Below, piece by piece: positions 12,352 to 54,662 of a stretch of DNA of 64,000 nucleotides. The notes beneath the pieces are model-generated. The model saw only the letters and a program-made list of their open reading frames with translations. It was not told where the DNA came from and ran no database searches. The DNA comes from Myxococcota bacterium (GTDB taxonomy: Bacteria > Myxococcota_C > UBA6777), in contig JAKLKB010000012.1 of NCBI GenBank assembly GCA_023150835.1, forward strand, positions 1-64,000. Reading direction: 5' to 3'. Made by a program: the position numbers and the translations under genes. Every line of letters starts with the position of its first letter. Within the stretch, counting starts at the first letter, position 1.

Positions 12352-12443
12352 TTCCCTTGGGTCGTATTTCGAAGCGTGCAACTCCCTCTGGTCGTTGTCC
12401 GTGCCTTCCGTGCCTTACGTGGACTCTTTACCCTTCCCGTGCC

Positions 12444-14732
12444 TTACTTTGCCAGTACTTTGGCGCGGGACTCCGCCCTCTCCCACATCCGAATATAGGC
12501 TTCCGCAGACCGAAAGAGCGGCTCCAAGGCTTTGTCCGTCACACCATCGCGACGGACATCTTCGATCAGTTCCGGCAACAATCCGATATGGATCATACCT
12601 TCCTGATTGAAGTCGACTTTTCGCTCGCCAAGCTCGGGCTGAGTAAAAGTCACTTCACCATCATACGACTTGAACGGATATGTGACGGGGTTTACTTGCA
12701 CAGTGCCGCATCGGGCGTTCGCTCCAAAACGTGGGCGTGGACCACCAGCAAACCCGTTCAAGTCAAAACTCAGCGCCTCGGCTGGGTAAGCCCCCTTGCT
12801 CTTCGCCAGCGCGACATCATCCGCCAGACGCTTGCCCATGACGCCCGATTTGCTTGCATCACCACAACGGCCCAAGCTCGTACCAATCAGACCACCGAGG
12901 GCATAAATACGACCATCGTTGCTGTTGCCGTGGGTCTTCGTGGCGGGGTAATTGTTTTTTTCGAGGATCGCATAAGCCTCACTCAAAGCCCGCTGAGGCA
13001 GATGAGCGATATCAATGATCATCCCTCGTTTCATAAGCTGCTCCATCAGGGTGTTGCCCAACGGCGTCAGACCGGTCTTCTGGCAGTATTTACCTTTCGC
13101 TGGCGGCGCTTGGATCTTGGACAGATGTGGCAGCAGGGTTGCGAGAGGATCCGCCACAAAGCCGGACATATCGATCGGTGCTTTGGAGTCGTAGGTATCA
13201 CGCGGCTGGTTCAGTCCCCCAAAGAAGACATCCCCTTCATCAAAGGACGTCGAGATGCCGTTACAATCTTTGACGAAGTTGGAGTAGTGTCCGCTGTTAA
13301 TGAAGTTGCCCAGCTCGATAATCCCTCGGCTGCCATCTCCAGCCGAAAAGCCGTTGTCAAACTTATGGACGGGGAAGATCACGCGCACGCCTCGCTTGTG
13401 GTACTGATCGACTTTGGCGTTGACCGCATCCTCTGTGCAAGCTGTAAAGCCCTTGGGTGGCGTCAAAAAGCAATCGAAGAGATTGGATATCTCGATGCCC
13501 AAGACAACCGCCAATTTCCCCTCGTTGATCACGTCACGTGCGGCCTTGGGACTGGTGACCACACGCAACCAACCTTTTCCCGGCCCGCCAGATTGGGCGT
13601 CGATGTATCGTTCCAAGGCATAGACCGAATCGATAGCTCGATCGACACTCACCATGTCGTTGCAAGAATACAAGGTCTTCTGGGCTTTGACGGCCAATGT
13701 GAGTTCGCACATCATCGAGTTCCCTGTGGCGTGCTGCACCAAAAGACGCAACCCTCCGAGGTAGGCACGCTCAAGCCAGCGGTAATACATAGTCTGGTGG
13801 GTCGAACGACGCCATGAGCTCGGCCACTCGGTGAACTTGGGGTATCCCGCCGTATGATGGTTGAACTCTGCGACTTGGCCCTTGGTAAAGATCGGAAGGA
13901 TCGAATCCAAATCAAATTTTAACTTATCGTTGTCGTAGAAATATCCCATGATGTCATTGCGACCCTCCTGACCGTGCGAACGCGAGCAGTCAGACAAGGC
14001 ATGTTCCACACCCAGCCGATGAAACGGCGCACCATGAAAGACGCCGCCACCACCAAAACCGACGTTGCTCAGCATGTGAGAGTGGATCTCGGCGATGCCG
14101 TAAACATCGCCATCATCCCACTTCCGAGGTTTGGCTGCGCCTGTTGCGTCGATGCTGAGTTCGGGAAAGCTGGCACAGCCCTCTGTTGGGTGCAATCGGA
14201 TCATCGCCGCCTTAGCGGTATCATCGGTGAGACCCGACATGCTCAAAAAACGGCCCGTTGCGTAGTGTTGAAGTTGATACCGCTTGGGGTCACGCGCCGA
14301 GATCTGTAAGATCCACTCCGCCGGCGACTTCTCGTTTTCATCGAGCTTATCGAGAACGGATGTCAGCTTGGACAACCGAGTGAAGCTCCACTGATCACCG
14401 CTAGAACTCGCTGCAAAGTAGCGGCGCTCCGTGTCAAAAAGCAGATAGACTCCAAGGTCTGACGGACGCAGGGAAAAGCGCGCCGCAGTCTTGGAAGAGT
14501 CCGCCGAAAAGCTAAACTGCTCTGGGGTTTGTCCCGCTCCGATGTAGCGCGCAGCGTTCGCACCATCGAAGCCCTCGATGGTATAACAGCCGTTGGCCAC
14601 AGAGTACACGCTGTCTTGCGCGAGCGGAGGCTCCGTCTTTTCACACCCCATCAACAGCGCACACAAAACGAGACCCAAAAGCCTATCACACACGAAGGAC
14701 CGGAAAAAACGCAACGAAGAAAACGTAGACAT
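12444..14732 (-). CDS. M19/amidohydrolase-like metal-dependent lipoprotein
   Basis: About 762 residues from ATG 14732 (AGGTGG about 12 bases upstream). A lipoprotein signal (LLGLVLCALLMGC) anchors it, probably to the outer membrane. An N-terminal beta region of about 200 residues is followed by a TIM-barrel-like domain with a metal-binding HSH (EIHSHML), the phrases VVLGIEISNLFD, GVRVIFPVHKFDN and IIDIAHLPQRAL, and a C-terminal glycine-rich region. The pattern resembles membrane dipeptidase (peptidase M19) and related amidohydrolases, but it is longer than a classic M19 enzyme and the substrate is unknown. An 8-bp tandem repeat ends just upstream of the ribosome site. It is oriented with the FGE-fold genes to its right. 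Confidence 0.6.
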   Translation of the reverse strand: MSTFSSLRFFRSFVCDRLLGLVLCALLMGCEKTEPPLAQDSVYSVANGCYTIEGFDGANAARYIGAGQTPEQFSFSADSSKTAARFSLRPSDLGVYLLFDTERRYFAASSSGDQWSFTRLSKLTSVLDKLDENEKSPAEWILQISARDPKRYQLQHYATGRFLSMSGLTDDTAKAAMIRLHPTEGCASFPELSIDATGAAKPRKWDDGDVYGIAEIHSHMLSNVGFGGGGVFHGAPFHRLGVEHALSDCSRSHGQEGRNDIMGYFYDNDKLKFDLDSILPIFTKGQVAEFNHHTAGYPKFTEWPSSWRRSTHQTMYYRWLERAYLGGLRLLVQHATGNSMMCELTLAVKAQKTLYSCNDMVSVDRAIDSVYALERYIDAQSGGPGKGWLRVVTSPKAARDVINEGKLAVVLGIEISNLFDCFLTPPKGFTACTEDAVNAKVDQYHKRGVRVIFPVHKFDNGFSAGDGSRGIIELGNFINSGHYSNFVKDCNGISTSFDEGDVFFGGLNQPRDTYDSKAPIDMSGFVADPLATLLPHLSKIQAPPAKGKYCQKTGLTPLGNTLMEQLMKRGMIIDIAHLPQRALSEAYAILEKNNYPATKTHGNSNDGRIYALGGLIGTSLGRCGDASKSGVMGKRLADDVALAKSKGAYPAEALSFDLNGFAGGPRPRFGANARCGTVQVNPVTYPFKSYDGEVTFTQPELGERKVDFNQEGMIHIGLLPELIEDVRRDGVTDKALEPLFRSAEAYIRMWERAESRAKVLAK

Positions 14733-27847: not shown

Positions 27848-28233
27848 CACGAAATCCGCCTATCGTGTGCTCGCAACATATCGGGCCTCGGCTCGCCCTC
27901 GTGACAAGATGTCATCCCGCCTCTTCTCTCCGCCCTTTTCGGGTAGCATCACAAAGCCCCGATGCTGTAAGATATTTGACAAGAAAATCGTTTCTTGCCA
28001 AAGGTATGCTTTTTGCTCGCAAGGCTTTTTGTACCGCATTCCCCACCAAGACGGGGGTTTGGGACTCCAAGGAAAAGAAGCCTCGACGGATACAAAGATG
28101 AGGACGCACGCGCCCGAAGAGACGAGAATTGCGAAGTAGTGTAGTGTCACTTGCGCCGAACCAGCGTTGGATGGACACTGCGCACTCTCAAAGAGACGAG
28201 CCTCACGAAGCGATGGCACAAGGAGAAAAAAAC
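27848..28233. other. spacer upstream of gspD
   Basis: 386 bases with no supported gene. It begins with a diverged dispersed module (CGAAATCCGCCTATCGTGTG, 27850-27869). At 27980-27997 is a perfect 7-bp inverted repeat, CAAGAAAATCGTTTCTTG, just after TTGA, which could be an operator. A C-rich/G-rich pair near 28040-28065 (ATTCCCCACC / GGGGGTTTGGG) is weak. The gspD promoter must lie here. Confidence 0.5.
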
Positions 28234-30402
28234 GTGACGTGCTGGAGAAACAGAAGATGGACTTGGGTGCTGCTTTGCGCCTTGTGGGTCGGTGGCATGA
28301 CCGCTTGGGATGCCCGCGCCGCTCCGCCTTGTCTCCCCCAATGGCGAAAGCTAATCCGCCTCGAACTTCGCGATCAACCGATCCTCGAAGTGGTGAAAAA
28401 GATCTCGGACTTAACGTGCTACCATTTCATTGTTGCGGATCAGGTGCGCGGTAGAAAGATAACGCTGATCGCCGAAAAAGCCGTCTCTGTTCGTGACGTA
28501 TACAGCGCCTTTTTGTCGATGTTGGAGGTCAACGAACTCACGCTCGTCAAAGAGGGCGCATATCGCCGCATCGTGTTTTCCCGCCAAGCCCTCCAGCAAC
28601 CGATCCCCTACAGCCAAGGGAAGTTTCGAGAAGCCGCCCAAGACCAACTGGTGATGTATATGCTGACCGTCAAGCACATCGACGTGTTTCAGCTCAACAA
28701 CGTCTTGCGCCAACTGGCCAGTCCTGCGGGCCGTACCATCGTCTTTCAACCCTCTTCGATCATCCTGTTGGTGGACTACGCCAACAACATCCAGCGCTTG
28801 CTCAAGATCGTCAACGAGCTTGATGTCGCCGAAGCCAACGTCCGCGAGCGCATGTATATCGTGCAGATCCTCAATGGCCAAGCCCAAGAGATCGTGCAGC
28901 GCGTCCAAGCCATCTTCCAAGTCCAACAGATCCAGCCCAACCAACGCAGATTCGGCTCCAACCAGATCGACGAAAACTACCGCCTCTCGAAGATCATCGC
29001 CGACGAGCGCACCAACCGCGTGATCATCGTCTCAGGCCCGATGGCGTTTGCGAATGTGCGGGGACTGCTCGACAAACTGGATATCTCGCTACCTGACGGA
29101 GGCCAAGTTCGCCTGACACGCCTGCGCTTTGCAAAGGCCGATGAGATCGCCCAAACCCTCTCACAACTGGCCCAAGGCCGTTCGCCCATGCGAGGGCGTG
29201 CGCCGATCCGAGCTTCTTCCACCGATCTATTCCAAGGCGAGATCCGCATCACTCCTGACAAAGCCACAAACTCCCTTGTGATCGTCGCCAACCAGCGCGA
29301 TTACGAAAGCCTGATGCGCGTAATCAAACAGCTTGATGTCCGCCGCAAGCAGATCTTCATCGAAGCCGTGATCATGGAAGTCAGCCTCGAAAAGACGCGA
29401 GAGCTTGGGGCCGCCTTTCACGGTGGTTTACCGCTTTCCACCGACACCACCAATCCCTCCTTTGCGCTCCTAGGGACCCGACTTTCGGGGCTGACCAGCC
29501 TTGTACTCGATCCCGCTTCGCTGATGGGCCTTGCGCTTGGTTTGCGCGGGCCACCCCTTGCCGGAACATCGGGCCTTTTGGGGACAGGAACCTCCATCCC
29601 TTCTTTTGGCGTTGTCTTGCGCGCTATGCAGACCAACTCCGATGTCGACTTGATCTCAACGCCCCATGTCCTCGCCACAACCAACGAAGAAGCCACGCTC
29701 CAAGTCGGCCAAAACGTCCCATTCATCGCAGGAACCAACTTTTCTTCGATCGGGATGGGCGTCGGCTTTCCCGTACAAAATATCCAACGCCAAGACGTCG
29801 CCCTCACCCTCAAACTCAAACCCCAAGTCAACGCAGGCGACCGCGTCAAGATCGAGATCGATCTCGAATTAACCGAGATCGCGTCCCAAAACCGCGAACT
29901 CGGCCCCACCACCACCAAGCGAAAGATCAAAACCACCGTCCGCGTCCGTGACAACCAAACCATCGTGATCGGTGGATTGATCCGCGATCGTCAGGCCAAG
30001 GGCGTCTCGAAAGTCCCTGTACTCGGCGATATCCCTCTTCTTGGGGCGCTGTTTCGGGTCGAACAAAACTCCACCGAAAAACGCAATCTGTTGATCTTTA
30101 TGACCCCTCACATCGTCCTGACCGCCTCGGACTTCCGCAAGATCTTTCAACAAAAGATGCGCGAGCGCCAAGAGTTCCTCGATGCCTACTACACCGAAAA
30201 ATACAAAGAGCTTCGTGATAGCGCAAAGCTCCGATCAACGGGCGTATTGGATCATGTGTTTCGAGATCATGAGTACGTCGAGTCTCGCGCAGCACGCGAG
30301 CAACAGAAAAAACGCGAAGCTCAAAAACAAAAGGAAAGCCAAAAAGAGCTCCCTCGCGCCCAACAAGTCTCCCCCTCCAAAGCCCCGTCCCCCCGCGATT
30401 AG
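28234..30402 (+). CDS. gspD: type II secretion secretin
   Basis: 722 residues from GTG 28234, which has AAGGAG 8 bases upstream and begins a clean signal peptide (WTWVLLCALWVGGMTAWDARA). In-frame ATGs at 28171 and 28213 lack ribosome sites. Outer-membrane channel subunit. N0/N1-type domains follow the signal (LIRLELRDQPILEVVKKISD; YMLTVKHIDVFQLNNVLRQL), then further N-domains (RMYIVQILNGQAQEIVQRVQ; VRLTRLRFAKADEIAQTLSQ). The C-terminal secretin domain has LISTPHVLATTNEEATLQVG and VPVLGDIPLLGALFR. A charged coiled tail (YVESRAAREQQKKREAQKQK) replaces the S-domain. No other gsp genes are in the window; it converges on the minor-pilin operon. Confidence 0.92.
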   Translation: MTCWRNRRWTWVLLCALWVGGMTAWDARAAPPCLPQWRKLIRLELRDQPILEVVKKISDLTCYHFIVADQVRGRKITLIAEKAVSVRDVYSAFLSMLEVNELTLVKEGAYRRIVFSRQALQQPIPYSQGKFREAAQDQLVMYMLTVKHIDVFQLNNVLRQLASPAGRTIVFQPSSIILLVDYANNIQRLLKIVNELDVAEANVRERMYIVQILNGQAQEIVQRVQAIFQVQQIQPNQRRFGSNQIDENYRLSKIIADERTNRVIIVSGPMAFANVRGLLDKLDISLPDGGQVRLTRLRFAKADEIAQTLSQLAQGRSPMRGRAPIRASSTDLFQGEIRITPDKATNSLVIVANQRDYESLMRVIKQLDVRRKQIFIEAVIMEVSLEKTRELGAAFHGGLPLSTDTTNPSFALLGTRLSGLTSLVLDPASLMGLALGLRGPPLAGTSGLLGTGTSIPSFGVVLRAMQTNSDVDLISTPHVLATTNEEATLQVGQNVPFIAGTNFSSIGMGVGFPVQNIQRQDVALTLKLKPQVNAGDRVKIEIDLELTEIASQNRELGPTTTKRKIKTTVRVRDNQTIVIGGLIRDRQAKGVSKVPVLGDIPLLGALFRVEQNSTEKRNLLIFMTPHIVLTASDFRKIFQQKMRERQEFLDAYYTEKYKELRDSAKLRSTGVLDHVFRDHEYVESRAAREQQKKREAQKQKESQKELPRAQQVSPSKAPSPRD

Positions 30403-30496: not shown

Positions 30497-33400
30497 TCAG
30501 TTATCGAGCACAAGCACCCAGTCTGTCGCCATGATCGTCTTGTTGGAGGGTGGGGTGTTCATCATCACGGGTGCGTTTCCGCTGCCTGTGTTGTTGGTGG
30601 CGTTTTTCACCACGGAGTTGGGCGGTTGCAAGAACTGGTTGGCACCGCTCAAACGGGACAACGACACTTGGACGGCCAGCTTACCGCTCTTTTTGACTTC
30701 GACGTTCGAGCCTTTCTTGGGATCGGTCGGATCACGCGGGACGTTTTGCAGATCACCCGGCGTATAAGAAACCGTCGGTCCCATGCTCAGCGTATTTTTC
30801 CCGAACGCGTGGTAACGGTAAAATTGGTAATCATTGGGTTGAGTCACAGGTGGCTCGGTAATCAACATCGGCTGCGTGTAGTTGATATCGTTGCAACGCG
30901 CATCCGCCACAGGAGAACTCGCTTTCGGACCATCGACGTACTGCGTGCGCATCCCTTCGTTTTGGCATTCTGGAGGGTTTGAATGGGTGTTGCAGGAAGT
31001 CAAGGCATTGCACTGCTCGACGGGTGTACGGTCGTTGTTGTAACGGCTTGCATTTTTCAATGCGAGGCAAGTCGCATCGGTGCAAGGTTCCTCGTAGCGG
31101 ATGCCGTAAAGCCGCGCCTCACCGGGGAGACCACACACGGGCAGCGTATCGCTCGCCACGTCGAAGGTTGTAAAATAGGTAATACCGTTCGCTATCACGG
31201 GATCTCCCGTAAATTTCTCTCCTGTGTAGCCGCCTGCGGTGTACTGTTTCAACAGAGTTTGGCTGTTATCCCGATCGTTATACTTGTTGAGATCGCCCAT
31301 CCACGCATGAACGAGATAACGAAACTCACCGAGCGAACCGAGGATCTCGCGCAACGAGAAGGTCTTGTTGGTGGCGTCATAAGATTCCACGTTCGTCAAA
31401 TCGCCCGTTCCACCCGAAAGAACAAGCTCACCGCGTGGGTTCAAAGCAAGCGCCATCGAACTCATCACAGGTTGAGGAGAAGTGTTGTACTTGAACGGAT
31501 CATGGACAAAGTGTGTGTTTTGTACGTCCACACCGTTGCACTTGGGCATCTGGGGTTGGCCGGTCGTCGGATTGACGTTGCCCCACGCCGCAACATCTGG
31601 ACATCCAAGATCGACTCGGAAGATACGGCCATGTGCATCACCAAAGAAGAAACGTGTCATGGGTGCCGGCTCGATGGGGTATCCCACAGGCGTACCCGTC
31701 ACGCCACGCGCATCGTAAAACTCCAAAGGACGGTACGATCCCGTACACCCTGTCGCCGTTTTGCACGTGTTGTTCGCCATCAGATCGTAAGGAACGATCT
31801 CCGACAAGAACATACCTGTCTCCAAATCCACGATGTAGACGACCGCGCCGATGTGATTGTTGTTTTTGTCCATCGTGTAGGTGGGCGGGCTATTGTTGAT
31901 GTTGATATTGACCCCACCGGGCAGGATCGCAACGGCGCGCTCCATCGCGTTGGCGTTCGCACTTGGGCGGTTGGTGCTGATATCCCACCGCACAAGGACG
32001 TTGGCGATGAGCGGGCGTCCAACAGTATAACCAAGGCGATCAAACCGCGTATTGTCAGGCGACGGTGTGGTGACGATAGCCTTTGGATCTTTGTAGCTGT
32101 GGTGATTGATCTCCCACATCAAGCGGGGACGGAACGGATCCGTCACGTCGATCGCCACATAGCCGCGCCCTCCCATTCCCATACCAAACAGCAGGACCGA
32201 GCGAAACTTGGCATAGACTTCACCCGAGTTGCCGTCATAGAAACGGAACATTTGATAGTTCCCGACAACTGGACTTCCATCTGTGGTGTAGACGCGCCCG
32301 CCACCTTCGCGCATCCCACGAACGGCGTACTTCAGATTCGGCAAGACTGTTTTGGGGATAAAGCCCCACAACTCCATCCCGCTATCCGCGTGGAAGGCAT
32401 GCATGATCCCGTCGTTCGACCCCACAAACAGGACCGTTGGACGGCTCGCTCCGATGGTCGCTCCACCAATCCCCCCTGCCATCTGCGTTTTCAACCAATC
32501 GTTGTAGCGAGGATCTTCGCGATTGGACAGCGGGCGCGTCAACAACGCCGGTGTCGAATGATAGATCGCTCCCAACTTAAAGGAGCGCAGCTTGGGGCTT
32601 GTCGTATCGTATCCACGAATGAAGTTGACGAGAAACTCGAATTCTTCTTTGCACTCGTTTCCGCTTTGATCACAACCACCATAACATTCTTCTTGAGTGC
32701 AGCAATACGCCCCACGACAACCAAGCGCGCATTGATCTGTTGCTCCACCCGAATTGCAGCGCAAACGCAGATTGCGGCGAAAAGTGACGTTGATCGGATC
32801 CAATCGGTGTTCTGCTGCGGGAGCGAGCGTATTCGAAGACACCGTTCCGGGTTGAGCGTTGGCGATATCGCTGATCCCGCCGGGCTGAAGGATCGCGATC
32901 GGCGGGTTGGCGTCATCATCGTAGATATCAAATCGTTTCGTGGTGGGGTTATAGCCCGTCATGGTGGTGCTTGGGGTATGGTTGCGGGTCTCTGTTTGCA
33001 CACGATTGACCGAAAGATCCACAGAATTCGGCACGGTAAAACCGTTCGTTGTCAAATCAAGACCATCCAACCTTTCGACGTTGACAAAGATCGTGCGCGG
33101 GCTACTGAGGTTTCGCGTATCATCCAGTTGTTTGCCGAATTCCAAATAAGCCTGCGGCTCGGGTACCAACCGACCGTCATTGGGATCTTCGCAAAGCCCA
33201 GAACGCTCCAGTTTCCCTTGTGGCATCATACAGTTGAGCGCTTTGATATAATTGTTCTTACACCAATTCTTGCATCCATCCCATGCCGTTTGCGAACCGT
33301 CCGCGCCTGCGAAAAAATTCACGCGGTTGGTACCGTTGCAAGCGTGGTAGAGCGGCCACAAACAACCATTCCCTCCGAAATTGGTGCAGCGCTGGCAATA

Positions 33401-35122
33401 AATCCCCCATGCCGTCCCGGGCGGGCTGTTTGTGGTGCCTGTTCCTCCGCACTGTGCGGCTTGTTTGGCATCGTTGCGACAGATCGCGTTGTAGATCTGA
33501 TCGATGCGCTGCGAATTGGGATCGTTTGGATTGGCGAGGCAGTACGTGTTGCCGGAAGCGCTGTTGTCGTTGGTTTCGCTAAACGTACTCAAGAAGGTGT
33601 ATTGCTTGACTTTCTGGCTTCCCGAAACAGTGGTGCATTGGTTTTGCGTTAAGTTACGGTTGATATAAGACGTTGAGACGTTCTTTGTATAAGATTTAAG
33701 ACAGGTACAACCCGGGACGTTTTCGTCTGTTCGACCGTCGCAGTTGTTGTCCAAACCGTCGCAGACTTCGGCTGTTGCGTTGTCGATGATCTCTTGGAAA
33801 GCAGAGGCCAGCGAGGCCGCGTTGTTGGCAGCATAATAAAGGCAGCTTCCGCCCGTACAATTGGCGGGCTTCGTACGACCAAAATGCGCGATATCGTTTA
33901 AGCAATTTTTCCCAGCCGTTCCAAGACCATTGCCGAAGCCAACAACGTACGTTTTGTTTTGGTTACCAAAGTCGTTGAAGACTTGGTTGACCTTCCATTC
34001 GGCGCAGTTGCACTGCCCCCCGTGGGTTGTCCCTTTCACTGCGTACGTAAAAGGACTCAGGCTCGCCATCTGCGGTGTGCAAGTGCTGTTTGTGTTGCTT
34101 CCAGAGGGATCGCCGTCGGTCACAAAGAGGATCGCTGTTTTTCGGTTGGGGATGGTGTCCAGATTGCGCGCTCGTATCATCATATTTCGCGCCAAGTCCA
34201 GCCCCGCCCAATAATTCGTCCCTCCCTCAGCGGTTGCGTCGATCAAGGCTTGTTTCACGATGGTCGGTGGATCCACCGTGCCATCGTCTTGGACGATACG
34301 GTGGTAGACGCTGTTGGTTTTGTCCCAAGCGCTCCCGTACACGCTCGTGTGATAAGACCCGTTTGAGAAGAAAACAAGACCAAACCGAACTTTGCGGTCG
34401 TTGTAGGAGTTCGCAAGGGTTCCCCCATAGCTATCGACGGACTTGACAAGGGCGTTGATAGCGGTGTCCCAACGCGTATAGCGGCAAGTTTTCGCACCCG
34501 TCGGGCCTTCACAGGTCGAAGAACCCATGAAATCGAAATACTTCATGTCAGGGTTGTGCGTCGTGGTTCGGCACTGTGTGGTGGAGGAACAAGCGAATCC
34601 ACTGTCCACCAGCGAACCTCCCGTAAAATACATACTACAAGAGCGGTCGAGGACGATGATCAAGTTGGGCGGTTCGCAGTTTGAAGCGGTGGGGGGGGTG
34701 TTGCATTTTCCAGAGAGGCATTTGACTTTGTTTCCGCATCGGGCATTTTGGCAGTCTTTGTCGGTGGTGCAACTGTTTGGGCAACCCGCTGTGCTGGAAG
34801 CACAAGAGTTCGTCACGGCTCCAGAAGAATCCGTCTGTCGACAAACTTGTAGAGAGGGACAATGATGGTCTTCGATGCAGACGTCACAACGGTTGCTTTT
34901 GGGATTGCAATAGGGATAATTACTGACGCCTGAAGTACAACTTCCTCCATTGGAGCAGTACGCCGCAGAACGACAATAAGCGTCCGAGGTGCAGCTTTGG
35001 CGGAAACCTGGGTGAGTGACGGCAGTTTGGGGTGGTGCTGCGTGGGTTTGCGGCGCATCGGAAACCAGCCAGAGCAGGACGCCAAAGAGTCCAGCCCGAA
35101 GGATGATGGGGACACGTTGCAT
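30497..35122 (-). CDS. pilY1: PilY1-like type IV pilus tip adhesin with VWA and MopE-like motif
   Basis: 1541 residues, ATG 35122 with GGAGG 5 bases upstream, signal peptide 1-28. A Cys-rich N-terminus (CTSDAYCRSAAYCSNGGSC) leads to a VWA domain (about 150-450) with MIDAS VLDRSCSM (about 157-164) and LFVTDGDP. Right after it comes CDGLDNNCDGRTDENVPGC (about 453-472), like the MopE copper/metal-binding repeats of Myxococcota. A second Cys-rich region follows. The C-terminal half is the PilY1 beta-propeller: VLFVGSNDGIMHAFHADSG, MELWGFIPKTVLP, then MGGRGYVAIDVTD. PilY1 is an exported tip protein involved in adhesion, calcium-dependent pilus dynamics and surface sensing. It is the last gene of the fimT-pilV-pilW-pilX-pilY1 operon. 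Confidence 0.93.
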   Translation of the reverse strand: MQRVPIILRAGLFGVLLWLVSDAPQTHAAPPQTAVTHPGFRQSCTSDAYCRSAAYCSNGGSCTSGVSNYPYCNPKSNRCDVCIEDHHCPSLQVCRQTDSSGAVTNSCASSTAGCPNSCTTDKDCQNARCGNKVKCLSGKCNTPPTASNCEPPNLIIVLDRSCSMYFTGGSLVDSGFACSSTTQCRTTTHNPDMKYFDFMGSSTCEGPTGAKTCRYTRWDTAINALVKSVDSYGGTLANSYNDRKVRFGLVFFSNGSYHTSVYGSAWDKTNSVYHRIVQDDGTVDPPTIVKQALIDATAEGGTNYWAGLDLARNMMIRARNLDTIPNRKTAILFVTDGDPSGSNTNSTCTPQMASLSPFTYAVKGTTHGGQCNCAEWKVNQVFNDFGNQNKTYVVGFGNGLGTAGKNCLNDIAHFGRTKPANCTGGSCLYYAANNAASLASAFQEIIDNATAEVCDGLDNNCDGRTDENVPGCTCLKSYTKNVSTSYINRNLTQNQCTTVSGSQKVKQYTFLSTFSETNDNSASGNTYCLANPNDPNSQRIDQIYNAICRNDAKQAAQCGGTGTTNSPPGTAWGIYCQRCTNFGGNGCLWPLYHACNGTNRVNFFAGADGSQTAWDGCKNWCKNNYIKALNCMMPQGKLERSGLCEDPNDGRLVPEPQAYLEFGKQLDDTRNLSSPRTIFVNVERLDGLDLTTNGFTVPNSVDLSVNRVQTETRNHTPSTTMTGYNPTTKRFDIYDDDANPPIAILQPGGISDIANAQPGTVSSNTLAPAAEHRLDPINVTFRRNLRLRCNSGGATDQCALGCRGAYCCTQEECYGGCDQSGNECKEEFEFLVNFIRGYDTTSPKLRSFKLGAIYHSTPALLTRPLSNREDPRYNDWLKTQMAGGIGGATIGASRPTVLFVGSNDGIMHAFHADSGMELWGFIPKTVLPNLKYAVRGMREGGGRVYTTDGSPVVGNYQMFRFYDGNSGEVYAKFRSVLLFGMGMGGRGYVAIDVTDPFRPRLMWEINHHSYKDPKAIVTTPSPDNTRFDRLGYTVGRPLIANVLVRWDISTNRPSANANAMERAVAILPGGVNININNSPPTYTMDKNNNHIGAVVYIVDLETGMFLSEIVPYDLMANNTCKTATGCTGSYRPLEFYDARGVTGTPVGYPIEPAPMTRFFFGDAHGRIFRVDLGCPDVAAWGNVNPTTGQPQMPKCNGVDVQNTHFVHDPFKYNTSPQPVMSSMALALNPRGELVLSGGTGDLTNVESYDATNKTFSLREILGSLGEFRYLVHAWMGDLNKYNDRDNSQTLLKQYTAGGYTGEKFTGDPVIANGITYFTTFDVASDTLPVCGLPGEARLYGIRYEEPCTDATCLALKNASRYNNDRTPVEQCNALTSCNTHSNPPECQNEGMRTQYVDGPKASSPVADARCNDINYTQPMLITEPPVTQPNDYQFYRYHAFGKNTLSMGPTVSYTPGDLQNVPRDPTDPKKGSNVEVKKSGKLAVQVSLSRLSGANQFLQPPNSVVKNATNNTGSGNAPVMMNTPPSNKTIMATDWVLVLDN

Positions 35123-35188
35123 GGGGCCTCCTTGATGGAAAGGTCAGGGGATTCGGAGAAACAAGGTATGAGCAAGAAAACACAGAGA

Positions 35189-43797: not shown

Positions 43798-45030
43798 TTA
43801 TTGGGCGGTATAGCACAAACGGTTGCTCGGATCACCATTGGTATCGCTGGTGTAGAAACCATGCGATTTGTCACGGTTATCGAGGCAGATGGTGAACTTG
43901 ATCTTGCCGTCCACTTTGTTCGACGGATCGGTCGTGATGCTTGGGTTGCCAGCGATCGCTCCTTCACCTTTGTGGGTGGTGATGCTTGCGCGTTTGGTGT
44001 CGATCGATCCGGATTTGTTGTAGTAGCTAAAGCTAACTTCGACGGTGCCGTTGGCGTTATCTTTTCCACAAAGGCTTTTGTTTGCGTCAAAGGGACGACA
44101 ATCGTAGCCGTTGGGACAATCGCTCGTGGTCGTACATTCGGTGCGGCTGCTGTCAGCGCTCCAACAAGAGTTCGAGGTGATGCGGTTGATCTTCACGTCG
44201 TGGATGATGCTGCCTTTGCTGGTTTCGATGCCTGTAGCCCAACCTTCGTTGCCTGTAGCGTTTTCGTCGCAGGCTTCGTTGGGGACGGCTTGGCAACCAG
44301 CTGTTTTGTTGTCGTCGGGGCAGTAGGTTTTCTTGGCGGCTTCGTGACAGACAGCGGTGGTGGTACAAGCAGCGGGGCCTTCGCAGACGTTGGTGGTGGT
44401 GTTGCACTTTTTGCCGCTACAGTTTTGATCCGACACGCATTCCACACATTTTCCAGCGGTGCTGCAAACTTTGCCGGGCTTGCTTGCGCACTGTGGGTCT
44501 GCTGTACACTCACGAGGCGGAGGGACGCACTTTTTGGGACTTGCAGCGGTGTCGCAAGTCGTGTTGGGGGCCTTGCCTGCGCAATCTGTATCGCCCTTGC
44601 ACTCGTCGAGTTGTTGTCCGGGCTTCAAACAGAAGCTATCACGGCACTCTTCGCCACCCGTACACTGCGTATTATCCGCGCATTTGATCACACAGGTTTT
44701 TTTGAAGGGATGACAAGCGTAGGTCGCGCCTTCTTTTGCACAAGCGGTCGCATCGCAGACGCAGCGGCTCAGGGTGTCATCGCATTTGTTTCCGGGATCG
44801 CAGTCTTTGAAGCTTGCGTCTTTGCAGTTTTTGAAGCACATACCTGCCGTTGTATCGCAGACTTCATCTGTTTTGCACTGCGTGTTGGAAGTGCATCCGC
44901 TTGTCCCACCGTCGCCACCGTCGGCGTTGGTGTTTTCGGTGTTGGTTCCGCCCGGACATCCGGCCAAAGTCGTTGCAAGCATCACCGCAAAAGCAGTTCC
45001 ACACAAAAGGCTTATCCATCTTTGAATCAT
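43798..45030 (-). CDS. Cys-rich lipoprotein
   Basis: 410 residues from ATG 45030 (GGAGG 6 bases upstream). Lipobox LATTLAGC, then a Gly/Asp linker (GGTNTENTNADGGDGGTSG). About 200 residues of Cys-rich repeats follow, pattern C-x(4-5)-C-x(3-5)-C-D (CTSNTQCKTDEVCDTTAGMC; CTADPQCASKPGKVCSTAGK), over 30 cysteines in all and resembling Dickkopf/EB-type modules common in Myxococcota surface proteins. The C-terminal domain (GTVEVSFSYYNKSGSIDTKR) is beta-rich. Likely outer-surface and disulfide-locked. Its ligand is unknown. Confidence 0.75.
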   Translation of the reverse strand: MIQRWISLLCGTAFAVMLATTLAGCPGGTNTENTNADGGDGGTSGCTSNTQCKTDEVCDTTAGMCFKNCKDASFKDCDPGNKCDDTLSRCVCDATACAKEGATYACHPFKKTCVIKCADNTQCTGGEECRDSFCLKPGQQLDECKGDTDCAGKAPNTTCDTAASPKKCVPPPRECTADPQCASKPGKVCSTAGKCVECVSDQNCSGKKCNTTTNVCEGPAACTTTAVCHEAAKKTYCPDDNKTAGCQAVPNEACDENATGNEGWATGIETSKGSIIHDVKINRITSNSCWSADSSRTECTTTSDCPNGYDCRPFDANKSLCGKDNANGTVEVSFSYYNKSGSIDTKRASITTHKGEGAIAGNPSITTDPSNKVDGKIKFTICLDNRDKSHGFYTSDTNGDPSNRLCYTAQ

Positions 45031-45699
45031 CACGTTCCTCCATGAGGGGTTGAGGTGGTCAAAGCCACCTTTGGGAAAGCGTTGTCGCTTTGCTTGTTTC
45101 TTTATGTCCTCGCTTGCGCGTTTTGTCAAAGTTTCGCAAGGCCCATTCCATCTTTTTTCTGCGCCCCCTTACAACACCAGAATCGCAAAACTTTTTTTCA
45201 AACCAGTGCGATCTTGCGCGCACACTCGCCCGTTCAAAACAACGCGACCTAGACATCTGTGTCATACTTTCGGTTCACGGCAGCGACGCTCTTCTTTCAA
45301 CAAATCTCCGTGAATCGCCAGCGAGCGAAAGATCGGCTCGCCCAAACATAGAAAAAATAAGCACGTTCTCTAAATAAGACGAGATAAAACGAGGCATCTC
45401 AAAAAGAGATCACCCTCCACCCTGTTTGTCCCCGTTTGCGCACGCTAGGTTCCATCAAAACAGGCGGAAGATGCTCACACAACAACAGAAGTTTACGTAG
45501 GGGCGGTTCGCGAACCGCCCGTGTATCGGGACATCGAGCAGCGAACGGACATACTCACACAACAACACAAGTTTGTATGAGCAGCGGTTCGAGCAAGCAA
45601 CATCCGCTTGTTTGCCTTTTGACGTACAAACGTGTTGTCTTTCCGACAACACAGACGAAGTGTCCGAGTGTTCGGGGTGGGGGGCCAACCATAGCTTAA
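45031..45699. repeat. repeat-rich spacer
   Basis: About 670 bases without a gene. The 20-bp palindrome GGGCGGTTCGCGAACCGCCC recurs exactly at 45501-45520, flanked by GTAG as in the copy at 4842. ATGCTCACACAACAACAGAAG and ACTCACACAACAACACAAG (about 45470-45490 and 45552-45570) form a direct repeat around it. The rest shows no clear ORF or RNA. Confidence 0.75.
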
Positions 45700-49211: not shown

Positions 49212-52200
49212 TCACTTGGGGATACGGAGACCTTTGAGAACACGCGGATCGATGCGGAGGAGACGCGGGGCGGGTTTGGCGTTTCCTGCTTTGGCGAGTT
49301 CTTCGTCGATGACGGACTTGAACTGTTCAAAGGGTTGAGCGCCGACAACAGAACGACCGTTGATAAAGAAGGTGGGCGTTCCGTTGGCTCCGGCTTCGCG
49401 AGCTTGTGTAAGATCAGCCTCGACGTAGGCTTTGTATTTGCCGCTATCAAGAGCTTGTTGGAAGCGCGCCGTGTCAAGACCTAGCTCTTGGGCCCATTTA
49501 ACAAAGTTTTCTTTGTTGAGGTTGCGGAAGTTGGCAAACAGCTTGTCATGGAATTCCCAGAACTTGCCTTGTTCATGCGCAGCCATCGAGGCTTGAGCGG
49601 CGAGGTGGGCATTTTGATGGAAGGGCAACGGAAGGTGCTTGAATACCACGCGCACTTTGCCACCGTAGGCTTTTTTGATCTGTTCGATGGTTGCAGCCCC
49701 ACGAGAACAGAAGGGACACTCAAAGTCCGAAAACTCCACGATGGTCACTGGAGCGTTGACAGGTCCGAAGGACGGGGCCTTTCCAGCATCGACCTTCACA
49801 ACGGGCGGAGCTTGGGGGCGTTCAGGTTGAGGTGCAGCGGGACGGCCAAGTTGCTTGCCAGCAAGCACATCGTCGATCACTTGCTTGAAGCGGGAGTACG
49901 GCTGTGCGCCGACAACGCGAAGGCCGTTAACAAAGAAGGTAGGCGTTCCGTTGGCCCCGACAGAGCTTGCATAAGAGGCGTCGGCATCGACGTACTTGGC
50001 AAGAGCGGGATCATCAAGATCTTTTTTGAAGCGCGCCGTATCAAGGCCGACTTCTTGGGCCCACTTGAGGTAGTTGTCGCGGTTCAAGTTGCGGAAGTTG
50101 GCGAACAGTTTGTCATGGAATTGCCAGAACTTGCCTTGGCGATGTGCAGCCATCGAGGCGATAGCAGCGGGCTTGGCGTTGCGATGGAAGGGCAACGGAA
50201 GGTGCTTGAACACCACGCGCACTTTGTCGCCATAATTTTTCTTGATCTCGTCCATCGTTTTTGCGCCACGAGAACAGAAAGGACATTCAAAGTCCGAAAA
50301 CTCGACGATCGTCACCTTGGCATCGGCAGGACCGAGAGTTGGTGCATCGCCAAGATTGATCTTCACGATGGGTTCGGGTTCGGGTTGACTCGGGCGTTGG
50401 GGAGCAGCAGCACCCGGTATCGGCTTTCCAGACAGTGCAGCGTCGATCATCTGCTTGAAGCGGAAGATCGGTTGCGCGCCCACAAGGACGTGGCCGTTGA
50501 TGAAGAAAGTGGGTGTTCCGTTGGCCCCGACAGAGCTTGCATAAGAAGCGTCGGCATCAACGTATCGGGCAAGAGCGGGATCATCGAGATCTTTTTTGAA
50601 GCGTTCGACATCAAGGCCAACTTCTTGGGCCCACTTGAGGTAGTTGTCACGGTTCAAGTTGCGGAAGTTGGCGAACAGTTTGTCGTGAAATTGCCAGAAC
50701 TTGCCTTGGCGATGTGCAGCCATCGAGGCCACAGCAGCGGGCTTGGCGTTGCGATGGAAAGACAACGGCAAGTGCTTGAACACCACGCGGATCTTTCCAG
50801 CATAATCCTTCTTCAGTTGCTCGACCGTGGCGGCACCACGAGAGCAGAAAGGACACTCAAAGTCCGAAAATTCGACGAGCGTCACTTTGGCGTCGGCAGG
50901 TCCCCACGCTGGGGCATCACCGATCTTGATATCGACTTTGCTCGGAGGAGCCGAGGGCGTCGGGCGTTGGGGAGCATCGCCCGGGATAGGTTTTCCGGCC
51001 AGTTCGGCGTCGATGATCTGCTTAAAGCGGAAGAAAGGCTGCGCACCACCGAGTTCAAAACCGTTGATAAAGAAGGTGGGTGTTCCGTTGGCTCCGACAG
51101 AGCTTGCATAAGAAGCGTCGGCATCGACGTGCTTGGCAAGAGAGGGATCATCGAGATCTTTTTTGAAGCGCTCGACATCAAGGCCGACTTCTTGAGCCCA
51201 CTTGAGGTAGTTGTCACGATTCAAGTTGCGGAAGTTGGCAAACAGTTTGTCATGGAATTCCCAGAACTTGCCTTGGCGATGCGCAGCCATCGAAGCCACC
51301 GCAGCAGGCTTGGCGTTGCGATGAAAAGACAACGGCAAGTGCTTGAACACCACGCGCACTTGATCGCCGTAGGCTTTTTTCACTTCGCGGATCGTCGCGG
51401 CCCCACGAGTACAGAAAGGACACTCAAAGTCCGAAAACTCCACGATCGTGATCTTGGCGTTGGCGGAACCCCATGTCGGGGCGTTTCCGATCACCATCTT
51501 CTTGCGCGCCCCTGCCGCTGCGGGAGAGGGCTGCGGAGCAGGTGTGGGGGCCGAAGGAGCGGCTTTTCCAGAAAGGATATCGTTGATCACTTGTTGGAAG
51601 CGATCGAACGGTTGGGCTCCCACCACACTTTGGCCGTTGATAAAGAAGGTGGGTGTTCCGTTGGCTCCGTATTGACGGGCAAGAGCGAGGTCTGCATCAA
51701 CAACGGCTTTGTATGTACCGCCGTCTAGCTCGCGTTGGAAGCGTTCGACGTTTAGGCCGAGTTCTTGGGCCCATTTGACAAAGTTTTCTTTGTTGAGATT
51801 GCGGAAGTTGGCGAAGAGTTTGTCGTGATAAGGCCAGAACTTGCCTTGTGCGTGGGCAGCCATCGAGGCTTGGGCAGCGAGGTGAGCGTTGCGATGGAAA
51901 GGCAACGGAAGATGCTTGAACACCACGCGCACTTGGTTGCCGTAGGCTTTTTTGATCTGCTCGATGGTTGCAGCCCCACGAGAACAGAAGGGACACTCAA
52001 AGTCCGAAAACTCCACGATCACGATCGGGGCATTGTTGGGTCCGAAGGAGGGGGAATTTCCTAGTGGGATCGTGTTCTTCGCAGCGAGGCGGTTCAAGCT
52101 CGGGATCACAACAGAGGGTTGTGAAGGTCGTACAGTACGGCCTTTTCCGCTCAGTTCTTGATCGATAATGGTTTTGAATTGATCGAAGGGTTGAGCGCCG

Positions 52201-53483
52201 ACGACGGACCGACCGTTGACAAAGAAAGTGGGCGTTCCATTGGCTCCTTCACGTCGAGCTTGTGCAAGATCGGCATCGACATAAGCTTTGTATTTGCCGC
52301 TATCAAGGGCTTGTTGGAAGCGAGCGACATCAAGGCCGAGTTCTTTGGCCCATCGGATGTAGTTGTCGCGGTTCAAGTTGCGGAAGTTGGCAAAGAGTTT
52401 GTCGTGATAAGGCCAGAACTTGCCTTGTTCGTGTGCAGCCATCGAAGCTTGCGCTGCGGAGTGTGCGTTGCGATGAAAAGGCAACGGAAGATGCTTGAAC
52501 ACCACGCGCACTTGGTTGCCGTAGGCTTTTTTCACTTCGCGGATGGTGCTTGCGCCACGAGTGCAGAAGGGACATTCAAAGTCCGAAAACTCCACAATCG
52601 TCACTTTGGCGCTGGCTGGTCCCCATGTCGGGGCATTGCCGAGGGCGATCTGTTTGCGAGGGCCGGTAGGAGCGGCTTCTGGGCGCGGTTGAGGTTTTTG
52701 AGCGAGGCCTTTGCCAACCACTGCTTGATAAACACGGCTTTTAGGCGTCCCAGACGCGATCATCTTTTGCGCGGTGCTGACTTCTTGGTCGATGATCTGC
52801 TTGAAACGTGCGAAGGGTTGGGCTCCTACAAGAATGCGACCATTGATGAAGAAGGTAGGCGTCCCGCCTGCCCCCATCTGTTGGGCATAACGATCATCGG
52901 CATCGACGTAGGCTTTGTATTTGCCGCTATCAAGGGCTTTTTGGAAGCGAGCGACATCAAGGCCGAGTTCTTGGGCCCATTTGAGGTAGTTGTCGCGGTT
53001 CAAGTTGCGAAAATTGGCGAAGAGTTTGTCGTGATAAGGCCAGAACTTACCTTGTTCGTGGGCAGCCATCGAGGCTTGTGCAGCGGAGTGAGCGTTGCGA
53101 TGAAAGCTGAGCGGGCGATGGCGAAAAGCCACACGTACTTTGTCGCCGTACACCTTTTTCACCATATCGATGGTGTTTGCGCCACGGTTGCAAAAAGGAC
53201 ATTCAAAGTCCGAAAACTCAACGATCGTCACTAACGCATCTTTGGGTCCGAAGGATGGGGCGTTTCCAACCTTCACGTTGTAGCGCTGCACATCCCGTGC
53301 AACAGCGCCTTCTTGGCCGCCACCGCGACCTGTCTTGTCAGCTTGTCCTCTGGTTGCTTTGCGCTCTTTCGTCGGCATCAAGCCCGTGAGTTTGGCGTCT
53401 TCAACACCAAACCGGCCCAGCATGAATCCGAAGAAGAGGCCAGCCACCACACCGATGATGAGACCTTGCTTCATACCGTTCAT
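49212..53483 (-). CDS. membrane-anchored protein with seven DsbA-like thioredoxin domains
   Basis: 1423 residues from ATG 53483. One N-terminal span (LIIGVVAGLFFGFMLGRF, about 8-25) and a charged linker anchor seven consecutive DsbA/BdbD-like (Thioredoxin_4-type) domains outside the cytoplasm. First active-site cysteines lie at residues 95, 304, 497, 688, 877, 1067 and 1256, each in FECPFC (C-P-F-C). Every domain keeps VEFSDFECPFC, KFW..HDKLFANFRNLN and the cis-Pro loop GTPTFF(I/V)NG. Spacing is 189-193 residues from domain three on. Domains 4-6 share AKPAA(V/I)ASMAAHRQGKFW; 1-3 and 7 have AH(S/L)AAQASMAAH(E/A)QGKFW. Pro/Ala linkers of 30-50 residues join them. Ordinary family members have one domain of about 200 residues. 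It starts 54 bases after the single-domain DsbA gene. Likely thiol oxidase, isomerase or multivalent carrier. Confidence 0.95.
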   Translation of the reverse strand: MNGMKQGLIIGVVAGLFFGFMLGRFGVEDAKLTGLMPTKERKATRGQADKTGRGGGQEGAVARDVQRYNVKVGNAPSFGPKDALVTIVEFSDFECPFCNRGANTIDMVKKVYGDKVRVAFRHRPLSFHRNAHSAAQASMAAHEQGKFWPYHDKLFANFRNLNRDNYLKWAQELGLDVARFQKALDSGKYKAYVDADDRYAQQMGAGGTPTFFINGRILVGAQPFARFKQIIDQEVSTAQKMIASGTPKSRVYQAVVGKGLAQKPQPRPEAAPTGPRKQIALGNAPTWGPASAKVTIVEFSDFECPFCTRGASTIREVKKAYGNQVRVVFKHLPLPFHRNAHSAAQASMAAHEQGKFWPYHDKLFANFRNLNRDNYIRWAKELGLDVARFQQALDSGKYKAYVDADLAQARREGANGTPTFFVNGRSVVGAQPFDQFKTIIDQELSGKGRTVRPSQPSVVIPSLNRLAAKNTIPLGNSPSFGPNNAPIVIVEFSDFECPFCSRGAATIEQIKKAYGNQVRVVFKHLPLPFHRNAHLAAQASMAAHAQGKFWPYHDKLFANFRNLNKENFVKWAQELGLNVERFQRELDGGTYKAVVDADLALARQYGANGTPTFFINGQSVVGAQPFDRFQQVINDILSGKAAPSAPTPAPQPSPAAAGARKKMVIGNAPTWGSANAKITIVEFSDFECPFCTRGAATIREVKKAYGDQVRVVFKHLPLSFHRNAKPAAVASMAAHRQGKFWEFHDKLFANFRNLNRDNYLKWAQEVGLDVERFKKDLDDPSLAKHVDADASYASSVGANGTPTFFINGFELGGAQPFFRFKQIIDAELAGKPIPGDAPQRPTPSAPPSKVDIKIGDAPAWGPADAKVTLVEFSDFECPFCSRGAATVEQLKKDYAGKIRVVFKHLPLSFHRNAKPAAVASMAAHRQGKFWQFHDKLFANFRNLNRDNYLKWAQEVGLDVERFKKDLDDPALARYVDADASYASSVGANGTPTFFINGHVLVGAQPIFRFKQMIDAALSGKPIPGAAAPQRPSQPEPEPIVKINLGDAPTLGPADAKVTIVEFSDFECPFCSRGAKTMDEIKKNYGDKVRVVFKHLPLPFHRNAKPAAIASMAAHRQGKFWQFHDKLFANFRNLNRDNYLKWAQEVGLDTARFKKDLDDPALAKYVDADASYASSVGANGTPTFFVNGLRVVGAQPYSRFKQVIDDVLAGKQLGRPAAPQPERPQAPPVVKVDAGKAPSFGPVNAPVTIVEFSDFECPFCSRGAATIEQIKKAYGGKVRVVFKHLPLPFHQNAHLAAQASMAAHEQGKFWEFHDKLFANFRNLNKENFVKWAQELGLDTARFQQALDSGKYKAYVEADLTQAREAGANGTPTFFINGRSVVGAQPFEQFKSVIDEELAKAGNAKPAPRLLRIDPRVLKGLRIPK

Positions 53484-53537: not shown

Positions 53538-54662
53538 TTATTTCCCTTGTTTGATCAGTTCGCTGTATACGTTTTCGGGTTTGATACCGCGCTGGAGCGC
53601 TGCGTCCGCGTCTTTGAGGGCGCGATTCGCCACGTCCAACGGGCTATCTTGCTCGCCCACAGGGTATCCGTTGATGTAAAAAGACGGAGTACCCGGGACG
53701 TTGATTTTTGTAGAAAGCTTGAGATCCTCTTGAACAGCGGTTGCGATGGCGGGATCTTTCAGGTCTTTTTGAAACTTCTCGACGTCCAGTTTGAGTTCTT
53801 TTGCGTAACGAACAAAGTCCTCCGCCTTGAGCTTTTCTTGATTTGCAAAGAGTTTGTCGTGGTACTCCCAAAACTTGCCTTGACGATGTGCAGCCATGGA
53901 GGCGATGGCAGCGGGCATTGCGTTTGGATGGAAGGACAGCGGAAGGTGGCGGTACGCCACACGGATGTTTTGCGCTCCGAACTGTTTTTGCAGCGCTTCC
54001 ACTTGTTGATGGGCTTGTGCGCAATAAGGACATTCAAAGTCCGAAAAGATGACGATCGTGATCTTGGCGTTGGCGGGGCCTTTGATCGGTGCGCCATCGA
54101 CGGGGATGGGGAGGGGCTTGTTGGCAGCGGCCTGTTTGGGAGCTTCTTGACCGACGCTGTCCAAGACTTTTTTGATCTCGTCTGCCGATTTGTTTTGTTT
54201 CACGGCATCCGCCACAAACTCCGCAACGCGCTGGATGCTTGGGCAAGTCTTGGAATCCGTTTGATAACAGCGCGCAAGGGTCTGGCCGCAACTGCAAGGA
54301 TGCTTGAGCGTGTTTAGGATCTTCAATGCGAATTCTTGCTTTTCTTTGGAAAGCTCGGCCAAAGAAACACCTTGTAGATCAGAAGCCTTGAGCGCAGGTT
54401 GAGAGGCCGGAGCAGAAAGAACAGGCGCGCATCGCGCAGGGCTGGGTTCTTTCTGTGCTTTGGCCACCACTTCTCGACGGCGTGCTGGAGGACTTGCCGT
54501 AGGAACCGCATTGACCTGATGTGTGGGGTACAAAACGGGATACGCAGGGGGAGGAATTAAGCCACCAAACCGACCGAACCACGCCCCAAACAGGAATGCC
54601 GCAAAGACCCAACCACTATAAAGAAACATTCGCTTTGAGCTCGAAAGAGCTTGCTCACTCAT
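53538..54662 (-). CDS. single-domain DsbA-family thiol oxidoreductase
   Basis: 374 residues, ATG 54662 with GGAGG 6 bases upstream. N-terminal anchor (FLYSGWVFAAFLFGAWFG), a Pro-rich linker, then about 70 residues with four cysteines (HPCSCGQTLARC ... KTCPSIQRV) of a type also found before DsbA domains in related proteins. The thioredoxin/DsbA domain has active site CPYC at 211-214 and cis-Pro loop GTPSFYINGYP. HLPLSFHPNAMPAAIASMAA closely resembles the heptad protein's domains 4-6, so the two genes share ancestry. It precedes the heptad gene by 54 bases and is surely co-transcribed. Confidence 0.92.
   Translation of the reverse strand: MSEQALSSSKRMFLYSGWVFAAFLFGAWFGRFGGLIPPPAYPVLYPTHQVNAVPTASPPARRREVVAKAQKEPSPARCAPVLSAPASQPALKASDLQGVSLAELSKEKQEFALKILNTLKHPCSCGQTLARCYQTDSKTCPSIQRVAEFVADAVKQNKSADEIKKVLDSVGQEAPKQAAANKPLPIPVDGAPIKGPANAKITIVIFSDFECPYCAQAHQQVEALQKQFGAQNIRVAYRHLPLSFHPNAMPAAIASMAAHRQGKFWEYHDKLFANQEKLKAEDFVRYAKELKLDVEKFQKDLKDPAIATAVQEDLKLSTKINVPGTPSFYINGYPVGEQDSPLDVANRALKDADAALQRGIKPENVYSELIKQGK

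Follow-up and report, generated by a model that had tools for sequence, protein, structure and literature searches.

What use might a bacterium have for seven domains like DsbA, the enzyme that introduces disulfides into exported proteins, strung along a single polypeptide? The question is raised by a gene at positions 49212-53483, on the minus strand, of a 64,000-nucleotide stretch of DNA (hereafter the window; positions 1 to 64,000 of contig JAKLKB010000012.1, assembly GCA_023150835.1) from a Myxococcota bacterium (GTDB lineage Bacteria; Myxococcota_C; UBA6777). The reading that we favour from its sequence, and which we consider about as likely to be right as wrong, is that the product is a membrane-tethered, multi-site thiol oxidase of DsbA/BdbD type that would be charged by a VKOR-DsbA fusion protein. 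The gene and the parts of its product, whose repeated domains we refer to as beads, are as follows.

49212..53483, minus strand: seven-domain DsbA array protein, 1423 amino acids (open reading frame, Pfam)
53406..53474, minus strand: N-terminal hydrophobic anchor, residues 4-26, MKQGLIIGVVAGLFFGFMLGRFG (from sequence; kept in orthologues L035, L048 and L044; topology presumed)
52764..53285, minus strand: DsbA domain 1, CPFC at residue 95 (clusters with domain 1 of the orthologues of other genera)
52137..52658, minus strand: DsbA domain 2, CPFC at residue 304
51558..52079, minus strand: DsbA domain 3, CPFC at residue 497
50985..51506, minus strand: DsbA domain 4, CPFC at residue 688
50418..50939, minus strand: DsbA domain 5, CPFC at residue 877 (domain comparison and AlphaFold2 model)
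49848..50369, minus strand: DsbA domain 6, CPFC at residue 1067 (domain comparison and AlphaFold2 model)
49281..49802, minus strand: DsbA domain 7, CPFC at residue 1256 (domain comparison and AlphaFold2 model)

An initial annotation had placed seven CPFC sites with matching cis-Pro loops at these residues of one membrane-anchored chain, and the positions proved exact. The reading frame opens with ATG and contains no internal stops, a Gly-Thr-cisPro (GTPTFF) loop is present in all seven domains, and a Pfam scan returns both Thioredoxin_4 (PF13462, E=4e-195) and DSBA (PF01323, E=3e-172) seven times. Pfam rows for zinc-finger, Lar, Mitovirus and similar families were rejected, being sums of many weak repeats of which none passes on a single stretch. 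Each bead comprises about 174 residues, and 87 of the 174 aligned columns are invariant across the seven, with identities among beads of 64-82% (protein) and 66-82% (DNA); the linkers between them are 15-35 residues long and 16-40% proline. The protein begins MNGMKQGLIIGVVAGLFFGFMLGRFG, which reads as an uncleaved membrane anchor, and it is from this hydrophobic segment, at the head of one intact frame, that we infer the topology of the chain. No lipobox was seen in the protein, all 14 of its cysteines lying within CPFC motifs.

A repeat of this kind might have been created during assembly, particularly as the source genome is a draft of 239 contigs. However, the longest exact stretch common to any two repeats is 59 bp, which, together with their DNA identity of no more than 82%, makes the repeats tellable apart by short reads. 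Furthermore, the orthologue of the sister species (L031, G001:C53), the contig of which ends within the gene, retains the order of beads 5, 6 and 7: DNA identity is 89-90% between corresponding beads and does not exceed 81% between non-corresponding ones. The genes that flank the array gene are also conserved among relatives. Assembly expansion is consequently unlikely, given the short exact blocks and the co-linearity of L031 over beads 5-7, and with the frame intact at a locus for which the initial annotation had raised frameshift and assembly collapse or expansion as hazards, we regard an artefactual gene as extremely improbable.

The protein is neither unique nor isolated, being an extreme case within a little-described group of repeated DsbA proteins. 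Such arrays are also found in Myxococcota, and each of the five genomes sampled from the phylum (G000, the window genome, to G004) has several, with 20 such domains in the window genome. Orthologues of the seven-bead protein (group A) possess seven beads in G000, at least three in G001, eight in G002 (L035), at least two in G003 and four in G004, the counts for G001 and G003 being lower bounds because a contig ends within the gene. A lipoprotein array (group B) has six beads in G004 and five in each of the other four genomes, while three further groups are each found in two genomes: a coiled coil with three beads (group C), four beads (group D), and a long N-terminal part with two beads (group E). 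In the last of these (L010:2653-6306 and L033:4408-7623), an N-terminal part of approximately 700 residues without assignment precedes the two beads and is conserved between G000 and G001.

Among the best 80 genome loci, which our survey covered, 39 lie outside the phylum and encode a protein with at least three beads. Three beads are found in 31 proteins and four in 10, a single protein has five with a sixth truncated where its contig stops, and CxxC is kept in 136 of the 138 beads of such proteins; the genera concerned include Corallococcus, Myxococcus, Hyalangium and Nannocystis. Also outside the phylum, an uncultured member of the Myxococcales (L080, CAKZRU010000166.1) has at least six DsbA beads in an array that ends at the contig edge. 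The search in other Myxococcota suggested by the initial annotation thus shows that arrays of three to five domains are common there, with eight beads reached in one relative within the phylum. In a tree of the domains (FastTree, midpoint root, groupings taken without support values), the arrays of the phylum cluster together and apart from those of Myxococcota; bead 1 clusters across genera, and many inner beads cluster by genome. Taken together, tree and survey suggest that DsbA repetition is common to this region of the tree, and that the arrays have been lengthened separately in each lineage.

One possibility is that the array grew through recombination and was simply tolerated, one or two beads being enough and their number having no function. 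The differing bead numbers of orthologues (7, 8 and 4) and the clustering of inner beads by genome are what this explanation would predict, yet the state of the beads argues otherwise. Using the NG86 method, the ratio of non-synonymous to synonymous substitution rates (dN/dS) is 0.045, 0.092 and 0.051 for beads 5-7 compared with their orthologues in the sister species G001, and 0.16-0.31 between repeats, the latter range being rough since dS is near saturation in some pairs. Additionally, CxxC and cis-Pro are retained in all 24 visible group A beads of the five genomes, none of which has decayed. On these sequence comparisons purifying selection on the seven beads is strong, which agrees with the earlier suggestion that selection holds all of them active. 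Considering also that more than one paralogue family forms arrays, and that Myxococcota have them too, we judge tolerated expansion rather improbable. Other DsbA-like domains of the same five genomes do lack CxxC; for example, the array at L045 (G003:C458, ~11000-13050) has lost most of its active-site cysteines and contains one in-frame TAG, and is possibly decayed or else a DsbA fold in non-redox use.

How the beads are arranged in space bears on two further explanations. An AlphaFold2 model of beads 5-7, built from an alignment of 20 sequences, gives domains mostly above 90 in predicted local distance difference test score and linkers below 50, with a predicted template modelling score (pTM) of 0.41 that points to no fixed packing between beads. 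Between the packed and bead-on-string forms considered in the initial annotation, the prediction therefore favours the latter, with rigid DsbA beads on disordered, proline-rich linkers. The modelled beads, which show a thioredoxin fold with an inserted helical domain, match DsbA/BdbD structures at Z scores of 17-24, the top matches of single beads being BdbD (Z 24), 3gyk, Wolbachia alpha-DsbA2, ScsC and Corynebacterium diphtheriae TsdA. A relay, in which electrons would be handed from bead to bead, could draw on seven sites lying on one polypeptide. However, the CPFC and Thr-cisPro elements are identical in all seven, such that no redox gradient is expected, the linkers are predicted to be disordered, and domain number ranges from 4 to 8 among orthologues; we therefore find a relay highly unlikely. 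A flexible chain of DsbA folds might alternatively act as a multivalent holdase for exported proteins that are still unfolded, its disulfide chemistry being secondary, in the manner of the tandem thioredoxin-like sensor of UGGT. Foldseek does return a low-quality match to UGGT spanning several tandem beads, although its root-mean-square deviation exceeds 20 Å; moreover, the thioredoxin-like domains of UGGT are not known to carry active CxxC sites, whereas both cysteines and cis-Pro persist in every visible bead, and a holder appears improbable.

Among the functions offered initially, a high-capacity oxidase fits best. Under this oxidase reading, an N-terminal helix would anchor the chain in the inner membrane, and seven independent beads on flexible proline-rich linkers would extend into the periplasm, each donating its disulfide to an exported client. 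The beads would then be re-oxidised by the only recognised quinone-linked oxidase of the cell, VKOR fused to DsbA, and repetition would make oxidising sites both locally more concentrated and more plentiful around cysteine-rich clients. The periplasmic topology, the oxidising direction, the partnership with VKOR, the cysteine-rich exported clients and the benefit in avidity or capacity are steps that we infer. One VKOR is present in each of the five genomes, always within a reading frame that also encodes one or two DsbA domains (in the window genome at G000:C113:8976-10580, L131:163-1977, with equivalents in the four relatives), and this constant fusion points to oxidation via the DsbA fold. 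The Pfam model for DsbB finds no match in any of the five genomes.

Cysteine content was surveyed in a rough 459 kb sample of the window genome, taken in 20 kb stretches, with the same script applied to Escherichia coli. Cysteine makes up 1.82% of predicted exported proteins, 3.78% of lipoproteins and 1.22% of cytoplasmic proteins in the window genome; the order is reversed in E. coli (0.75% exported, 1.07% cytoplasmic) and near level in Myxococcus xanthus (1.06% and 0.95%). The myxobacterial disulfide repeat, matched 18 times in G000 and 53 times in G004, was tried as a universal client and discarded because G001 and G002 have none.

Several of our observations weigh against an oxidising array. 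CPFC and Thr-cisPro do not tell the direction of the reaction and would suit an oxidase, reductase or isomerase; in the cysteine survey genes were called crudely and signal peptides judged by a heuristic, and its sample is non-random, including the cysteine-rich genes of the window and the arrays themselves; and the disulfide-repeat family has no matches in G001 and G002. Furthermore, DsbD-type (DsbD_TM) proteins are encoded in all five genomes, which makes a reducing role possible. The main rival is accordingly a multi-site disulfide reductase or isomerase, in which DsbD would keep the beads reduced and wrong disulfides would be removed or shuffled, as by ERdj5 in the endoplasmic reticulum. 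DsbC, too, has the Thr-cisPro that is present in the beads, ScsC-like folds occur among the bead matches, and ERdj5, a chain with several active sites, is itself a reductase (PMC3906653). In sequence and fold, however, the beads are nearest to proteins of BdbD/TsdA type, no dimerisation domain is seen in the seven-bead protein, and VKOR in the phylum always comes fused to DsbA, for which reasons we think this rival unlikely, if less so than those above.

Directly upstream of the array gene, on the same strand and separated by a gap of 54 bp, lies a second gene with a DsbA domain.

53538..54662, minus strand: partner gene, 374 amino acids, N-terminal anchor, one DsbA domain (CPYC) (Pfam, neighbour comparison)

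The pair is adjacent in all four genomes whose sequence reaches the array's 5' end (the window genome, G002, G003 and G004). The partner possesses a helical region with a conserved PC-x-CGQ-x2-A-x-C-x7-C motif, and the eight-bead protein of G002 (L035) opens with a similar region. No Pfam family matches this N-terminal cysteine region above cut-off, the sole match being a sub-threshold SapB_1, and its predicted structure is helical at low confidence; as a guess, it may be a CcmH-like thiol module. Two cysteine-rich genes lie elsewhere in the window: a PilY1-like exported protein with 63 cysteines (30500-35143), near a secretin gene (28102-30399), and a lipoprotein of approximately 440 amino acids with about 40 cysteines (43798-45129) and no Pfam matches.

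In two relatives, the group B array appears to have taken up selenocysteine (Sec). The five-bead lipoprotein arrays at L038:5644-8889 (G002:C31, metagenome-assembled genome M3003) and L043:4912-8061 (G003:C139, running from 4912 to the contig end) each contain three in-frame UGA codons, and their frames are otherwise open. All six UGA codons fall at the first cysteine of CP[FY]C sites (UPFC, UPYC and UPYC in each array), where orthologues have Cys. Hairpins with a conserved loop (-11 to -18 kcal/mol, obtained without a selenocysteine insertion sequence model or shuffled control) lie downstream of all six. SelB scores above cut-off in all five genomes, and tRNA-Sec is strong (70-72 bits) in G000, G002, G003 and G004; in G001 the sole match over threshold, at 48 bits, may be an ordinary tRNA, many weak examples of which are also returned by this search. 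These are likely to be tri-selenocysteine DsbA arrays, in which Sec would be expected at positions 107, 504 and 689. In a 2026 review, DsbA-like selenoproteins are listed with a count of one (we take the column to give Sec residues), and two to three Sec residues are confined to a small subset of selenoprotein families (PMC13188914), which makes a DsbA array with three Sec look new.

A broader proposal, plausible though on balance doubtful, is that DsbA has here been made polymeric: four to eight linked active oxidase beads, and a paralogous lipoprotein string with three Sec, would share one VKOR-DsbA supply and form a membrane-bound oxidising reservoir for a cysteine-rich exported proteome. 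Natural chains of seven or eight beads that keep every site would show that covalent linkage of enzymes is one way for cells to increase their supply of disulfides, and ready-made multi-site oxidases would be at hand for producing cysteine-rich proteins. The natural series (3, 4, 7 and 8 beads, in Cys and Sec forms) makes the benefit of bead number testable. To our knowledge, every characterised bacterial DsbA protein works either as one domain or as an oligomer of one-domain subunits. The initial premise that DsbA-family proteins normally have one domain, with no seven-domain member known to be described, stands only in part: arrays are widespread, and Atkinson and Babbitt had already reported double and triple DSBA domains in DsbA-like proteins in 2009 (PMC2757866), yet no description of arrays this long was found. 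That report describes similarly repeated bacterial DSBA domains with a maximum of three, compared with seven here and eight in G002, and no function for them was found in it; a search of open-licence literature on multi-domain, tandem or myxobacterial DsbA returned nothing on this architecture beyond it. As judged from their sequences, the seven- and eight-bead arrays with apparently active sites and the tri-Sec arrays exceed the described cases that we found.

Among known systems, ERdj5/DNAJC10 likewise carries many thioredoxin domains on one chain, several of them active, but is a eukaryotic reductase with six domains (four active) and a J domain (PMC3906653). UGGT shares tandem DsbA-like domains with the seven-bead protein (PMC8024514), although these are packed rather than strung and are fused to a glucosyltransferase. 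Closer in sequence is the NCBIfam family NF041057 (Rcas_1661 family thioredoxin-like (seleno)lipoprotein), whose name covers Cys and Sec forms and which is matched by all seven bead stretches, with 734.6 bits summed over the seven against a cut-off of 190 bits set for a one-domain protein; the upstream partner scores below this cut-off. NF041057 models a single-domain lipoprotein of 247 positions, whereas the array protein has seven repeats and a membrane anchor without a lipoprotein signal. Finally, BdbD (3eu3), TsdA (7unn), 3gyk and alpha-DsbA2 (6eez) resemble the beads in fold, CxxC and cis-Pro (Z 21-24), yet each has one domain per chain, whereas here seven are joined on a single anchored chain.

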